A stretch of 64,000 nt of DNA, taken from the NCBI RefSeq assembly GCF_023276355.1, contig NZ_JALLPL010000001.1:992001-1056000 (forward strand), given 5' to 3'. How positions within the stretch are numbered: the first letter of the stretch is position 1; each line of letters opens with the position of its first letter. This document shows positions 32,811 through 39,435 of this stretch, piece after piece. The notes beneath the pieces are model-generated. The model was not told the origin of the DNA and ran no database searches. It worked only from the letters and a program-made list of their open reading frames with translations. The DNA is from Haloplanus sp. XH21 (GTDB lineage: Archaea > Halobacteriota > Halobacteria > Halobacteriales > Haloferacaceae). The position numbers and the translations under genes are program-made.

Positions 32811-32885
32811 GGGTTGGTGGTCTAGTCAGGTTATGACACCTCCTTGACATGGAGGAGGCCGGCGATTCAAATTCGCCCCAACCCA
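32811..32885 (+). tRNA. tRNA-Val (anticodon GAC)
   Basis: A full cloverleaf: acceptor GGGTTGG paired with CCAACCC, anticodon stem CCTCC/GGAGG with loop TTGACAT (anticodon GAC), T stem GGCGA/TCGCC with loop TTCAAAT, and discriminator A. CCA is not encoded, as is normal in haloarchaea. Its last 14 bases plus two following bases are repeated at 35738, marking it as the attachment site of an integrated element. Confidence 0.95.
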
Positions 32886-32887
32886 CT
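32872..32887 (+). repeat. Putative att site, left copy (tRNA-Val 3' end)
   Basis: The 16 bases TTCGCCCCAACCCACT cover the 3' part of the tRNA-Val T stem, the acceptor strand, the discriminator and two following bases. An exact copy lies at 35738-35753. A tRNA 3' end duplicated some 2.9 kb away is the usual trace of tyrosine-recombinase integration. Confidence 0.7.
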
Positions 32888-32944
32888 TCCTTTTACAGGT
32901 GATTTCGGGGACAGTAGCCACTTCGTTTTAACAGAGGTGGTTGC

Positions 32945-33116
32945 ATGAGCCGAGAGGTCCGCGAACCGGACCTCGGTTCGAGGCGATATCGAGAGCATCC
33001 TCGTGACCGACCTCGAACTCGCCGATGTCGACGATCTCGAAGAGCGGACGGTCGCGACGGTCGTCGAGACCCCCGAGCGCGGTCCTCGAATCGTCGGTCG
33101 TACGATCACCTGGTAG
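32945..33116 (+). pseudogene. Broken small gene next to tRNA-Val
   Basis: An ATG at 32945 follows a TTTTAAC promoter-like stretch and begins MSREVREPDLGS. About ten codons later the coding quality moves to another frame, which reads GDIESILVTDLELADVDDLE, then ERTVATVVETPERGPRIVG and stops at 33116. Together these would make a protein of about 56 residues with one frameshift. Alternatively the short GTG frame from 33003 is used. Family not recognised; the typical chromosome codon use suggests a former haloarchaeal gene. Confidence 0.4.
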
Positions 33117-33417
33117 CGCGGCGACTGGTGAGTGACAACACCGTCTCGTAGTATTGTTCTTCATATACTAACCTTCCCAACCCCGCTTTCTGGTGGAGCG
33201 ATAAAATCGCCGAATTCCTTTCTTTCGGACCGTCCCGCCACGAATCTGCGCGGATCGTTACCGGCCGCCGGGAACATCCCCTTAGGGAGTGTTCGTAAAA
33301 GGACAGACTCCGAAAATCCCCCGCCAGCTTTGGCTGTTCCACCTGATGCACGAGAAAGGGAGGTCCTTCACTTCTGTCACGGAGCACCACAAGAAACAAT
33401 CGTGTATGTGAGGATGA
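33117..33417. other. Gene-free segment of the island
   Basis: About 300 bases with no supported gene. Several frames are open for 60-100 codons on both strands, but none shows a consistent codon pattern or a recognisable motif. It may contain decayed coding sequence. Confidence 0.35.
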
Positions 33418-33756
33418 GTGCTTGTGTTCCTCCTTAATGGGATTGCTGTTCGTCGGGAAGGGTTCAAATTAGTTGTTGCTGGCATCCCTGAAAAATGGCA
33501 TGATAGATTCAAATTAATGGGCTGGATTCGAGTTATTATTGAATCTATCTTGGCTATTATCGGAATTGTTTCTGTATTTTCCGGATTCGCTTACAGTCTC
33601 CCGATAATCACCTTAATACTCTCAATTCTCGTGTTTCTTGAACTTGGACGCCCTGATATAGAGTATAAATATCAAGTGTCATACTATACTACCCAGCAGA
33701 AGATGGGTTCGGATGGATCCCTCAGCTGGGGATTTGATCCCCACTTACTACATTAA
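33418..33756 (+). CDS. Hypothetical membrane protein of the island
   Basis: A 112-residue frame from a GTG at 33418. The centre is hydrophobic with probably two helices (RVIIESILAIIGIVSVFSG and SLPIITLILSILVFLEL), flanked by charged soluble ends. Base composition is clearly AT-rich compared with the rest of the window, which points to horizontal origin. The start is uncertain and no family is recognised. Confidence 0.5.
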   Translation: MLVFLLNGIAVRREGFKLVVAGIPEKWHDRFKLMGWIRVIIESILAIIGIVSVFSGFAYSLPIITLILSILVFLELGRPDIEYKYQVSYYTTQQKMGSDGSLSWGFDPHLLH

Positions 33757-33767
33757 TACACTACTAC

Positions 33768-33974
33768 TTGGACAATGAGAATGAGCGAATATCAAACGAA
33801 GAGTTAGGGCTGTATGGAAGCGAACACTTGGAATTACAACTTCCACCCCAATATATTGAAAATTTGGGCGAAAGTGTCGAATCCATCAATATGACTTTAC
33901 CATTTCCTGCAAGGTCGTTAACCATTAAGAAGGAATCTGAGGCACAATTCCAAGAACGAACGTCTACTGAATAA
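33768..33974 (+). CDS. Hypothetical short acidic protein of the island
   Basis: A 68-residue frame that would need a TTG start at 33768: an acidic start (DNENERISNEELGLYG), a central LELQLPPQYIENLGESVESI, then a short basic stretch. AT-rich like its neighbour, from which it is separated by 11 bases. The lack of an ATG or GTG start makes it a weak call; it could be a fragment. Confidence 0.35.
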   Translation: MDNENERISNEELGLYGSEHLELQLPPQYIENLGESVESINMTLPFPARSLTIKKESEAQFQERTSTE

Positions 33975-34170
33975 CTTGCTCTATACTGATTACCAAGAAC
34001 GCGACACAGTCTTCACGACACCCTTCTTTGAGGCCTTGGATTACGATGTTTAGAATACTCTCTCATGCCATTAGTGGTATGCGTTGGTTTGTGGGAACGA
34101 CGCAATTTACTACGATACTGAATGACTCTGCCCCAGTACGTTTAGGTGGCGGGGCGTCCCGCATGGCAGT

Positions 34171-34431
34171 GTGTCACGCCCCGACCGCCTTGGAGAACTG
34201 CTGGATGCAGACGCTCTTCTCGCCCGTGTGGCCGGGTTCTGGCTCACGATCGGCATCCAGACAATCGCGGTCGGACTCGTCACGATACCGTTGGGAGTGT
34301 TGCTGGCAACGTTTATTGGTCCGCTTCACCTTTCGCCGTGGCCACCAGATGGCTCTGTCTGGGTCTTTGTCGGACCGATTCATCTCACCCTGACTGTCGC
34401 CTTTGGACAATGGGCAGCCCGAATGCCCTAA
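34171..34431 (+). CDS. Hypothetical membrane protein of the island
   Basis: An 86-residue frame from a GTG at 34171 (SRPDRLGELLDADALLARVA) with two predicted helices, roughly FWLTIGIQTIAVGLVTIPLG and VWVFVGPIHLTLTVAFGQW. Its codon use is closer to the chromosome than that of the two preceding frames. It converges on and overlaps the next gene by 4 bases. Unknown function. Confidence 0.5.
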   Translation: MSRPDRLGELLDADALLARVAGFWLTIGIQTIAVGLVTIPLGVLLATFIGPLHLSPWPPDGSVWVFVGPIHLTLTVAFGQWAARMP

Positions 34432-34973
34432 ATCCGCGGTCGCAGGCGATCACCGAGAACCGGCAGTTGATCTATCGCACTGCGCCGGATAACCCCAGCG
34501 ACCACCAGCCCTATCGCGATTACCAGGACGCCAATCGCCGCTGGTGAGATGCCGGTTTCGCGGAACAGCAGATTGTCGGCGAACGGAATCACGACGGCTG
34601 TGAGGAGGGCCGGCGCAGTAACCCCACCGCCGAGCAGCGTCGCGACCCAGACTGTCCCGAACAGCAACGTCGTCAGATACGCGACGAACAAGATACCCGC
34701 CACCACGACCTCGATCGGGCGGAGACTAAGCTCATCAGCAGCCTCGAACCGGCCCAGCTTCGCATCCCGAAAGGCGAGCGCGGAGAGCTGCATGACGACG
34801 CCGACGAACGTCACCGCTACCAGCGCGCTTGATCCGATGTCAGTAAGCGCGAGCAGCAACAGACCCGGAGATCCGAAGACTGCAACACTAACTGTCAGCA
34901 ACAGCAGTGCCGCTCCGAGCCCGCGATAGAACTCGCCGACGCGGCTTGGGAGCGTCTCGGCTGTGATAGACAT
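34428..34973 (-). CDS. Five-helix membrane protein of the island
   Basis: A 181-residue protein with about five hydrophobic helices (GLGAALLLLTVSVAVFG, SSALVAVTFVGVVMQLSAL, VVVAGILFVAYLTTLLFG, and a last AAIGVLVIAIGLVVAGVI) and short charged loops. No functional motif is visible. One copy of the 59-base repeat lies directly upstream of its start and could carry regulatory signals. Confidence 0.6.
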   Translation of the reverse strand: MSITAETLPSRVGEFYRGLGAALLLLTVSVAVFGSPGLLLLALTDIGSSALVAVTFVGVVMQLSALAFRDAKLGRFEAADELSLRPIEVVVAGILFVAYLTTLLFGTVWVATLLGGGVTAPALLTAVVIPFADNLLFRETGISPAAIGVLVIAIGLVVAGVIRRSAIDQLPVLGDRLRPRI

Positions 34974-34990
34974 AATGCGGTTTCTATAAG

Positions 34991-35049
34991 ACGCTATAAC
35001 CTCCGCGGTTGTAAGTGTGGCTCTCGATATCGCCTTTTCTCGCTGCTGA
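34991..35049 (+). repeat. 59-base direct repeat, copy 1
   Basis: Shares the core CGCGGTTGT..GTGTGGCTCTCG followed by CCTTTTCTCGCTGCTGA with the copy at 35651, at a spacing of exactly 660 bases. Both begin with a CTATAA-type stretch that resembles a TATA box. It sits just upstream of the minus-strand membrane gene. Confidence 0.65.
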
Positions 35050-35207
35050 AAACACCGGCGAGAAAGGGTGGTTCCAGCGTATCACCCTAGTTATAAACCC
35101 AATCGGTTGTCACTACGTAACAAGACAGCACGTGTAGGATGGGGCACGCACCTGAGCCGTTGTTCGCGATGACTGTAGGTAAACCCTCGCCTGCTGTCGC
35201 TCAGACC

Positions 35208-35402
35208 ATGTTCGGAAGCAACGACGTGAGCGACCTTCAGCAAGAGATTGTCCAGACCTACGATCGCAACCCCGACGCCGACGCGAAGGCGATTGCACAG
35301 ATGTGCGACTGTTCGGCGTCATACGTTCGCGAGACCATTGACGAGTATCGCGGTGGGTTCGGTAGTGGAGGTGGTCTCGGCGGTAGCGGCGGGTTTCTCT
35401 GA
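35208..35402 (+). CDS. Small helix-turn-helix-type protein
   Basis: A 64-residue protein from ATG 35208: FGSNDVSDLQQEIVQTYDR, then DAKAIAQMCDCSASYVRETI, which fits a helix-turn-helix, and a Gly-rich tail. An upstream in-frame ATG at 35139 would add 23 residues without family character. It probably binds DNA. Its 3' end overlaps the following membrane frame by 38 bases. Confidence 0.55.
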   Translation: MFGSNDVSDLQQEIVQTYDRNPDADAKAIAQMCDCSASYVRETIDEYRGGFGSGGGLGGSGGFL

Positions 35403-35595
35403 ACCCACACAGACCAGCCAGCCCGCGCAGGGCCAGCTGGATGCCGATCTCGGCGAGACGCTCGCTCAACTCGATGAGGGATCACGGATCGAGCAGGCGA
35501 TTGCGACACTACTCCGGTTATTCCTTCTCGGAGTCATGCTGTATATCCTCGCGCGACTGGTAGAGATCCTCTTCGGGATCCCGATCCCATTCTGA
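35365..35595 (+). CDS. Small tail-helix membrane protein overlapping the HTH gene
   Basis: A 76-residue frame from a GTG at 35365: a soluble Gln- and Asp-rich part (TQTSQPAQGQLDADLGETLA) and a C-terminal transmembrane helix (ATLLRLFLLGVMLYILARL, ending FGIPIPF). Its start lies inside the Gly-rich tail of the HTH gene in another frame. Together they could form a DNA-binding and membrane-anchored pair, or one ancestral protein separated by a frameshift. Confidence 0.45.
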   Translation: MEVVSAVAAGFSEPTQTSQPAQGQLDADLGETLAQLDEGSRIEQAIATLLRLFLLGVMLYILARLVEILFGIPIPF

Positions 35596-35650
35596 ACGAC
35601 AATTCCTGGGTGTACTTACACTGGATTCTCGTACAACCGCGCCTTGCTTA

Positions 35651-35709
35651 CGACCTATAAAATCGCGGTTGTCGGTGTGGCTCTCGCCGATCCCTTTTCT
35701 CGCTGCTGA
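35651..35709 (+). repeat. 59-base direct repeat, copy 2
   Basis: The second copy of the 34991 repeat, lying between the HTH/membrane pair and the right att copy. The strongest identity is the GTGTGGCTCTCG core and the CTTTTCTCGCTGCTGA end; the middle differs by several bases. Confidence 0.65.
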
Positions 35710-35737
35710 CCGTCGCGTACACCCTCCTAGCCGAGGC

Positions 35738-35753
35738 TTCGCCCCAACCCACT
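35738..35753 (+). repeat. Putative att site, right copy
   Basis: An exact 16-base copy of the tRNA-Val 3' end (TTCGCCCCAACCCACT). It touches the stop codon of the following minus-strand gene, so the element ends almost flush with a chromosomal gene. Confidence 0.7.
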
Positions 35754-36235
35754 CACCCCGCTCGATAGTCGCCCAACCGATCCGAGACGCGACGGTTCAT
35801 CGGAATCGCGGTCGGTGGACCGAGGAGCAGGGCGCCGAACAGCCCCAGCGCCACGAGGAGCGCGACTGGCACCCCGACTCCCGTTCCGAGGACCGCGAGC
35901 GCGGCGAGCGCGAAGCCGACGCCGATGACGAGCAGTAACCGCTGTCCGAGCGCGTGGCAGAACACGACGCCCGCGCTGGCGTGTTCGATCCCGTAGTCGG
36001 CCAGAAACCGTCTGGTGTCGGCGACGGCGGCGAGCAGGTGAACGACTCCGTATCCCGAGAGGACCGTGGCGCCGGTCCACCACGAGAGCGTCAGCATGGC
36101 CTCGCTCGGCGTGAACGGCCCGCGAACGAGGGCGACGAAGGGCGCGAACACGCCCGTGCTGGCGATAGCAACTGCGACGACTACCGTGTTCGCGTCTCGG
36201 AGTCGACGAGCGCGTTCGAACGCGGATCGGCTCAT
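35753..36235 (-). CDS. Four-helix membrane protein of unknown function
   Basis: A 160-residue protein with hydrophobic stretches NTVVVAVAIASTGVFAPFVA, TGATVLSGYGVVHLLAAVA, LLLVIGVGFALAALAVLGTG and ALLVALGLFGALLLGP. No catalytic motif is seen. Both this gene and the next minus-strand gene have chromosomal codon use, which places the island boundary before them. Confidence 0.65.
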   Translation of the reverse strand: MSRSAFERARRLRDANTVVVAVAIASTGVFAPFVALVRGPFTPSEAMLTLSWWTGATVLSGYGVVHLLAAVADTRRFLADYGIEHASAGVVFCHALGQRLLLVIGVGFALAALAVLGTGVGVPVALLVALGLFGALLLGPPTAIPMNRRVSDRLGDYRAG

Positions 36236-37419: not shown

Positions 37420-38172
37420 TCACCACTGCTCCGACACCAACTCGCCGCCTGCGACTTCGGGGATGATCACCTCGTCGGCGCCGGCGTGCCGAGCGACGGA
37501 TTCGTAGGTTTCGTCGCCAACGCGGACGACGACGGTGAGGTCCGGCGCCAGTTGCGTCGCGAGGAGGGCGATCTGGATGTTCACGTTCGAGTCGTCGATG
37601 GCGGCGACGAGGACATCCGCTCGCTCGACCCCGGCGTCCCGCAGGTCGCCCTCCCGCCGCGCGTCGCCTTCGACGCCGAGGACGTCGGCGTCGAGCACTC
37701 GGTTGTACTGGGCGTCGTTTCGCTCGATGACGACGACCTCCCGTCCGCGTTCCCGCGACCGTTCGGCGACGGTCCGGCCGAACATCCCGTAGCCACAGAT
37801 GATGATGTGATCACTGGTCGACGCTCGTTCTCGCTGGTTTCTCACGCGTCTGAGTTCCTCCTGGATCTGCCCGCCGAACGTCGCCGTCAGCGCCGTCTCG
37901 CCCGTCCAGACCATCGCACCGACGAGGGCGACGCGCACGACGATGGCGAACGTCTTCACGCGGTCGACCGGGCCGGACGCGGTCTGGTAGTAGAGTTCGA
38001 TACTCGACGGATCGAGCAGCCAGAACGCCGCTTCGACGGTGCTGACGCCACCGAGGTGGACGAATCCGGCGATGCCGACGACGATGACGCCCAGGAGCGT
38101 CCCGACCGGTCGGGCGACGCGCCGGAGCAACCATCGGTTCGCCACGATCGGGACGTTCGAACGGGTCACCAC
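37420..38172 (-). CDS. TrkA-N (RCK) domain protein with two membrane helices
   Basis: A 250-residue protein. Two hydrophobic helices lie at about 20-45 and 75-100, followed by an RCK/TrkA-N domain with an NAD-type fold IICGYGMFGRTVAERSRERG (near 127-146), an acidic VIERND ligand region and a LVAAIDDSNVNI segment. It looks like a potassium-channel homologue, but the pore loop between the helices (DPSSIELYYQTASGP) has no TVGYGD selectivity filter. It may regulate a partner channel or carry ions in another way. Confidence 0.75.
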   Translation of the reverse strand: MVTRSNVPIVANRWLLRRVARPVGTLLGVIVVGIAGFVHLGGVSTVEAAFWLLDPSSIELYYQTASGPVDRVKTFAIVVRVALVGAMVWTGETALTATFGGQIQEELRRVRNQRERASTSDHIIICGYGMFGRTVAERSRERGREVVVIERNDAQYNRVLDADVLGVEGDARREGDLRDAGVERADVLVAAIDDSNVNIQIALLATQLAPDLTVVVRVGDETYESVARHAGADEVIIPEVAGGELVSEQW

Positions 38173-38292
38173 CGCCCGGTGACCGCATCCGGGTAAAACG
38201 CTGTTTGTCGGCGCAAAAGTCGCCGACGCGACGTGTTACCGCACATCTGGGAAAGAGGCAACTTTCAAGCCGTCTGCAACCACAGTAGCAGT

Positions 38293-39435
38293 ATGGATAT
38301 CTCTGATATTGCGACTCAAGAGTACATCGAGGTCGACGCGGGCGAGCGCCTCGGAAAGGTTCGCTCTATTTTCGACCGCGAGAACCCGAAGGGCCTCATC
38401 GTCACGGAAGACGGTGAGTACGCGGGTGTCATCGGCGAACGCGACCTGGTCCGCTCCCGGATCGAGGACGGGACCAAGGCCAGCGTCGTGATGAAATCCG
38501 CACCGCGGGTCGACCGCCACGAGGATGTCCGCGAGGTAGCGCGCGTCCTCGTCGAGGGTGGCACCAAGGTTGCCCCCGTCTACGAGGGAGAGAACCTCTG
38601 GGGTATCGTCACCGCCGACGCCATCCTCGAAGCGGTGCTCGACAGTCTCGACGCCCTCACGGTCGAGCAGATCCAGACGGAGGACGTAGTGACCGTCACC
38701 GAGGACGACCACATCGGGCAGGCGATCAACCGCCTCCGCGAAAACGGCGTCTCCCGTCTCCCTGTCGTTGACGACGACGACTCCCTCGTCGGCGTGCTCA
38801 CGACTCACGATATCGTCGACTTCGTGGTCCGGGACGCCGACCGCCAGGGCCGGGGCGACCGCCGTGGTGACCTCGACCGGATGCTCGACCTCCCCGTGTA
38901 CGACCTGATGTCCAGCCCCGTGGTGACGACCACGGAGGACGAAACCGTCGAGGACGCCGTGCGCCGCATGCTCGACAACGATATTTCGGGGTTGGTCGTC
39001 ACGCCGAGCGAGGACGACGAGACCATTACGGGCGTGCTCACCAAGACCGACGTGCTCCGCGCGCTCACCTTCACCGAGGAAGGGCAGATGGACGTTCAGA
39101 TCACCAACGTCGCCCTGCTCGACACCATCTCTCGCGAGGAAATCGTCGAGGGGATCACCAGCATCGCGGACAAGTATCAGGAGATGCAGGTCCACCACGC
39201 CCACGTTCGGTTCCACGAACACAAGGAGAAACTCCGCGGGACGCCCCTGATCCAGTGTCAGATCCGCCTGCGGACCAACCGCGGTCAGGTCGCCGGGACG
39301 GGCGAGGGCTACGGCGCCGACCACGCGTTCCACGTCGCGGCCGACACGCTCGAACGCAACGTGCTCGAACTGAAAGGACTGATCGCCGACGAGCAGTACC
39401 GCGGCCAGCTGCTCCGAAAACTCGGCGAGCTATAA
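38293..39435 (+). CDS. Four CBS domains fused to a ribosome-hibernation-factor-like domain
   Basis: A 380-residue soluble protein. Four CBS motifs run in tandem over about 8-270 (LIVTEDGEYAGVIGERDLV; VAPVYEGENLWGIVTADAI; RLPVVDDDDSLVGVLTTHD; GLVVTPSEDDETITGVLTK). From about 274 the chain becomes MDVQITNVALLDTISREEI and ends near FHVAADTLERNVLELKG, the pattern of the HPF/sigma-54-modulation fold that binds the 30S decoding site. It may couple adenine-nucleotide status to ribosome dormancy. Its stop overlaps that of radB. Confidence 0.8.
   Translation: MDISDIATQEYIEVDAGERLGKVRSIFDRENPKGLIVTEDGEYAGVIGERDLVRSRIEDGTKASVVMKSAPRVDRHEDVREVARVLVEGGTKVAPVYEGENLWGIVTADAILEAVLDSLDALTVEQIQTEDVVTVTEDDHIGQAINRLRENGVSRLPVVDDDDSLVGVLTTHDIVDFVVRDADRQGRGDRRGDLDRMLDLPVYDLMSSPVVTTTEDETVEDAVRRMLDNDISGLVVTPSEDDETITGVLTKTDVLRALTFTEEGQMDVQITNVALLDTISREEIVEGITSIADKYQEMQVHHAHVRFHEHKEKLRGTPLIQCQIRLRTNRGQVAGTGEGYGADHAFHVAADTLERNVLELKGLIADEQYRGQLLRKLGEL

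Follow-up and report, generated by a model that had tools for sequence, protein, structure and literature searches.

The 2.87-kb block of DNA behind the tRNA-Val(GAC) gene of Haloplanus sp. XH21 is probably the decayed remnant of an SNJ2/pleolipovirus-type integrative element that was integrated at the 3' end of this tRNA gene. The block lies in a window of 64,000 nucleotides (contig NZ_JALLPL010000001.1, positions 992,001 to 1,056,000), and all coordinates given here are positions in this window. It is a decayed mosaic, in which the 3' end of a DUF7845-family gene is combined with a pseudogene that has suffered a frameshift and with small genes that are orphans. It is bordered by the following features.

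32811..32886, plus strand: intact tRNA-Val(GAC) gene (ARAGORN; Rfam 32811-32885, 62.7 bits).
32872..32887, plus strand: proximal 16-mer TTCGCCCCAACCCACT on the tRNA side, attL-like, exact match.
35738..35753, plus strand: distal 16-mer TTCGCCCCAACCCACT, attR-like, exact, with no upstream hairpin arm.

An earlier note on this DNA had described an exact 16-base duplication of the tRNA-Val 3' end about 2.87 kb downstream of the gene and a partly AT-rich interval between the copies. Both observations hold. The two copies are 2,866 bp apart, and the DNA between them has a G+C content of 54% against 67% in the window, dipping to 37-43% at about 33.5-34.1 kb. The 16-mer comprises the 3' strands of the T and acceptor stems, the discriminator A and two more bases. 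The tRNA gene is regarded as intact because of its Rfam match. The locus shows the pattern by which tRNA-targeting integrative elements are recognized: the tRNA is intact, and its 3' end is repeated in direct orientation at the two borders. The T-stem letters of the distal copy (TTCGCC) are those of the species' own tRNA, whereas congeners have CTGCC or CCGCC, so the distal copy is recent.

A chance recurrence of the 16-mer amid ordinary gene turnover is very improbable. It is true that 16-mers recur elsewhere in the window inside coding sequence, and that the entire interval between the tRNA gene and a downstream CBS-domain gene is variable. However, only 9e-7 copies per 3 kb are expected by chance (first-order Markov model), and the repeated letters are exactly the tRNA 3' end plus two bases. 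Furthermore, the whole 2.94-Mb genome contains exactly two copies, both at the tRNA-Val locus; the 16-mer is therefore not common elsewhere in the genome, which the earlier note had named as grounds for refutation.

Between the two copies, the following features were found.

33105..33363, plus strand: end of a DUF7845-family gene (final codons and 3' flank) without the body of the gene (DNA match to genomes G292, G105 and G044).
33418..33974, plus strand: pseudogene of a membrane protein of about 279 amino acids in two frames (33418-33756 and 33768-33974), the 3' part missing (comparison with G238).
34171..34431, plus strand: orphan open reading frame (ORF) of 86 amino acids, membrane segments predicted by eye, no relatives found.
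34428..34973, minus strand: predicted membrane protein of 181 amino acids, with very distant relatives only (G111, 26%; G030, 47% over 55 amino acids).
34994..35049 (35004..35049 for the shorter extent), plus strand: direct repeat 1, 46-57 bp, before the helix-turn-helix (HTH) gene, 84% identical to repeat 2.
35139..35402, plus strand: HTH protein of 87 amino acids (weak HTH_23 match).
35365..35595, plus strand: single-span membrane protein of about 76 amino acids in another frame, overlapping the HTH gene, no relatives found.
35655..35709 (35664..35709 for the shorter extent), plus strand: direct repeat 2, 46-57 bp, 28 bp before the distal 16-mer, 84% identical to repeat 1.

The segment 33105-33363 matches the region after an intact DUF7845 gene in G292 (71% over 266 columns, E 2e-22). 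It has 70% DNA identity in G105 and a partial match in G044, at the same position after intact DUF7845 genes. Proteins of this family occur among the betapleolipoviruses, SNJ2 included; they are encoded by HRPV-3/9/10-13, HHPV-3/4, HGPV-1 and Harhisp1, by Haloquadratum plasmids of PL6 size and by larger plasmids of haloarchaea. The two frames of the pseudogene are 48% and 39% identical to two successive stretches of one 279-amino-acid protein of G238, the only genome of 291 others of the class to hold a relative; plasmid pCBA1220-02 encodes a 73% relative of the G238 protein. The earlier note's remark that the inner proteins match no known system is thereby answered in part, by the DUF7845 remnant and by this pseudogene of a plasmid- and array-borne membrane protein.

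Searches with the remaining genes yielded little. The small proteins gave a weak HTH match alone in Pfam and PHROGs, and the 181-amino-acid protein and the HTH/membrane pair had no informative relatives in the searches run. The HTH protein did not match viral contigs, and its similarity to plasmid and phage proteins was confined to the shared HTH domain (38-50% identity). Comparison of the whole-element DNA with plasmids gave no match. The HTH/membrane pair sits between the two 57-bp direct repeats. In inverted orientation, the 16-bp core of repeat 1 (35020-35035) is matched perfectly at 32981-32996, close to the tRNA-proximal end of the block.

No Pfam integrase domain was detected among the element ORFs or elsewhere in the 64-kb window, which bears out the earlier note that no integrase is visible. 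The block is called a remnant and not an element for this reason, and the decay of its genes also supports the remnant status that the note had considered. The partner-integrase search that the note had proposed gave ten Phage_integrase matches in the genome, all outside the window; the nearest, at C1:984298, lies 7 kb ahead of the window's first base. These matches could favour a satellite-type element still mobile in trans by means of another genome integrase. This alternative, which the earlier note had raised as dependence on an outside recombinase, is nevertheless improbable, as none of the integrases could be paired with the tRNA-Val site, the genes are decayed, and the element was found in no other genome or plasmid searched.

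The surroundings of the block were compared among relatives (one genome per species; CBS and TrkA labels assigned by eye). The upstream block and tRNA-Val are present in all 11 same-genus genomes, and neither the 2.87-kb block nor the gene at 35753-36235 occurs at this locus in any of them. Searching 292 genomes of the class at the DNA level gave no full relative of the block, which is therefore lineage-specific; the vertical inheritance of the same 2.9 kb in all relatives, named in the earlier note as contrary evidence, is not seen. The downstream flank comprises two features of interest.

35753..36235, minus strand: flank gene for an intact membrane protein of 160 amino acids, full length compared with G072 (63-64%) and G280 (45-46%).
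38233..39435, plus strand: CBS-domain gene (domain named by eye), the downstream anchor that delimits the hotspot.

The CBS-domain gene is found downstream of tRNA-Val in most congeners. The gap between the two is 304 bp in G009, 0.8-2.3 kb in G004, G005, G003 and G002, and 5.35 kb here. This range of 0.3-5.3 kb within the genus marks the locus as a hotspot; the gap contents vary among congeners, and a gene at 37420 is retained in three genomes. The final base of the distal 16-mer is shared with the stop codon of the 35753 gene. The idea that this gene was cut by the insertion was rejected, as it is full length.

The earlier note took the duplicated tRNA end as the usual signature of integration. 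The foreign, lineage-specific DNA between the copies agrees with this reading. However, duplication of a tRNA 3' end does not suffice as a signature in this genome, because 12 other tRNA genes show such copies without an integrated gene. In congeners, short units were found behind tRNA-Val, each closing with a copy of the tRNA 3' end. These tail-hairpin units follow tRNA-Val in G001, G002 and G008 (in the latter also tRNA-Val(CAC)) and are decayed in G003. In G008 (L032, L039), the CBS-gene block stands behind tRNA-Val(CAC) and the three units of its array, with tRNA-Val(GAC) about 82 kb away, which suggests a rearrangement between the two tRNA-Val loci.

Of 194 haloarchaeal genomes, 106 contain a pattern built from these loci (AGCGRAGCGA, 5-30 bases, GGTTCGAATC) and none contains the reversed control; a tRNA gene lies close upstream in 29 of the first 30 pattern loci. 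In an unselected test, tRNA genes of two genomes were checked for downstream copies of their 3' 16-mer. Besides the tRNA gene in the window, 12 others in the Haloplanus sp. XH21 genome have such copies (about 60-280 bp away, in hairpin units); the raw count was 15 among 57 ARAGORN calls, of which one is doubtful as a tRNA and another repeats a tRNA-Pro array already counted. For G238, the count was 15/38 among the tRNA genes listed. The reversed 16-mer gave 0 in both genomes. Thus, about a quarter to 40% of the tRNA genes in the two genomes carry hairpin repeats of their own ends (in G238, among the tRNA genes listed). The array loci are as follows.

Own genome: L309, L311, L314, L318, L321, L326, L327, L328, L337, L338, L342, L345.
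G238: L347-L373 and L119.
Class-wide: L124-L153 and L156-L275.

The units are arranged in tandem and are usually about 100-130 bp long, and the 3'-end copy lies in a hairpin whose other arm matches the same tRNA. Unit statistics were obtained from 219 units at 141 tRNA loci, most of which were selected by the pattern; they are biased accordingly, while the two-genome counts are unaffected. The T-loop is copied too in 182 of the 219 units, and the median unit length in this T-loop-copying family is 118 bp. In the bodies of those units, the inverted T-loop matches the local tRNA at 9.04 of 11 positions on average, against 7.51 for other tRNAs and 6.60 for shuffled bodies; the local tRNA is the better match in 163 units and the worse in 13. 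The units fold strongly (mean z -3.7, n=60). Different tRNA genes have units with related hairpin cores, and the number of units is unequal between orthologous tRNAs of two congeners. Similar units also stand behind tRNAs in contigs of metagenome-assembled genomes of Omnitrophota (L168), Elusimicrobia (L179) and Parcubacteria (L216); with those of E. coli tyrTV counted in, these bacterial units are 157-178 bp long and have the same layout as the haloarchaeal ones. Rfam holds no family for the units. The literature searched, which included few subscription journals, on GAGCGAAGCGAG, tail arrays, integron/attC and tyrT repeats contained nothing on the arrays, and the haloarchaeal tail-hairpin arrays appear undescribed so far. 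Separately, two dense clusters of tRNA genes, several with matching scores in both (G000:C1:1776562-1780649 and G000:C3:89218-91261), suggest a tRNA-rich virus/provirus or plasmid pair.

The distal 16-mer could itself be a relic of such an array, with unrelated mobile debris gathering later between it and the tRNA gene while the hairpin decayed. This is a possible but distinctly less likely origin. It would agree with the tail units at the same tRNA-Val in congeners, including the decayed one in G003. It stays in play because of G238, in which a tail array contains a related gene: the homologue of the 33418-33974 pseudogene is the sole gene of a 1,172-bp unit in the tRNA-Ser array (L119, 1133-2425), between tail copies, and of the hairpin core this unit retains just the 3' half. 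The first unit of that array is gene-less and 119 bp long. In the window, however, the search for an inverted arm before the distal 16-mer gave nothing beyond the shuffle level, and the region folds at the shuffle level as well (z -1.1). The distal copy was accordingly rejected as a tail-hairpin unit, whereas the tail copies at other tRNA genes of the same genome do form the 3' arm of a hairpin. It also lacks the T-loop kept by most units, and its own-species T-stem variant speaks for a recent copy. With no such hairpin around the distal copy, integration remains favoured.

More speculatively, haloarchaeal tRNA genes could serve as platforms on which tandem hairpin units accumulate and genes are captured between tail copies, in a cassette-like manner with bacterial counterparts. 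This proposal is a doubtful one, and the same doubt applies to capture in the tRNA-Ser array of G238 and, in a decayed state, in the window. The 1,418-bp unit at tRNA-Gly(CCC) of G238 (L347) was rejected as cassette evidence, as its tRNA copy of about 42 nt (judged by eye) looks like a classical attachment (att) site.

The foreign decayed content, the gene remnant of pleolipovirus/plasmid type and the non-hairpin copy together make integration by a tyrosine integrase of the short-core kind the favoured origin. Further points in its favour are the unique exact 16-mer pair, the absence of the block from the 11 congeners with their variable gap, the low and uneven G+C content, the intact flank gene that stops exactly at the distal copy, and the parallels in SNJ2-type att cores and in a Haloquadratum remnant described below. 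A mobile element with a betapleolipovirus/PL6-type DUF7845 gene would have entered the 3' end of tRNA-Val(GAC) by means of an SNJ2-type tyrosine integrase with a short core site (about 14-16 bp). This would have restored the tRNA on one side and left the displaced 3' end on the other. The integrase and most genes may have been lost later, and other debris may have gathered, such as the frameshifted membrane-protein gene and the HTH/membrane pair between the 57-bp repeats. What is left at this tRNA hotspot would be a remnant of 2.87 kb that no longer moves. It is integration, and not another route, that we infer as the source of the duplication, and the integrase type and original size of the element are to be read in the same conditional way.

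Several points weigh against this origin. The DUF7845 match covers mainly the 3' flank of the gene and few codons. The proteins of SNJ2 show no similarity to those of the element, the remaining genes are without viral relatives, and the spike, VP3-like and ATPase genes of betapleolipoviruses were not encountered, as no PHROG or Pfam match to them was found in the element. No relative with the whole element plus an integrase was found. A precise empty site, in which tRNA-Val...CCCACT would be followed directly by CACCCCGCTCGATAG with a single 16-mer, was not found among the relatives examined. Likewise, the alignment proposed in the earlier note, with strains having tRNA-Val joined directly to the 35753 gene, met no such relative. 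In G009 the gap is short, but the sequence after the tRNA does not match the window from 35754 onwards. As relatives do not conserve the 35753 and 36281 genes at this locus either, the empty site is not demonstrated. Finally, cargo-free tail duplications are common in the clade, and the 16-mer could predate the inserted DNA.

Taken by itself, the element is one more decayed tRNA-site integration and shows pleolipovirus-type debris at tRNA-Val. The array result weighs more. Duplicated tRNA 3' ends in haloarchaea often represent a tail-hairpin array and not an integration, and the calling of islands by tRNA-end repeats in this clade therefore needs a hairpin test.

Among known systems, SNJ2-type viruses are described in a review (PMC8371274) as using the tRNA 3' end with att cores of 13-14 bp. 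The window block resembles SNJ2 and the temperate betapleolipoviruses in the short att core at this position and, as far as the last codons and 3' flank show, in the DUF7845 gene family. It differs in lacking the integrase, accessory proteins, structural genes and Orc1/Cdc6, in its size (2.9 kb versus 17 kb) and in its site, tRNA-Val. The Haloquadratum tRNA-Thr remnant of 6.7 kb (PMC3119063) is likewise integrase-less and bounded by a partial tRNA copy; that copy is imperfect, with 5 mismatches in 57 nt, whereas the copy in the window is exact over 16 nt. The tail-hairpin units are like integron attC sites in general layout alone. They share their architecture with the 178-bp repeats of E. coli tyrTV-tpr-rttR, from which the distal copy in the window differs in having no hairpin and in lying 2.87 kb away. 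In E. coli tyrTV (L394), three exact 16-nt copies of the tRNA end stand at +178, +356 and +534 with the inverted GGGGAAGGAT upstream, and the tyrT/rttR repeats also hold a GCGAAGC stretch. Because of this resemblance, the spread, transcription and function of the haloarchaeal arrays are directly testable.

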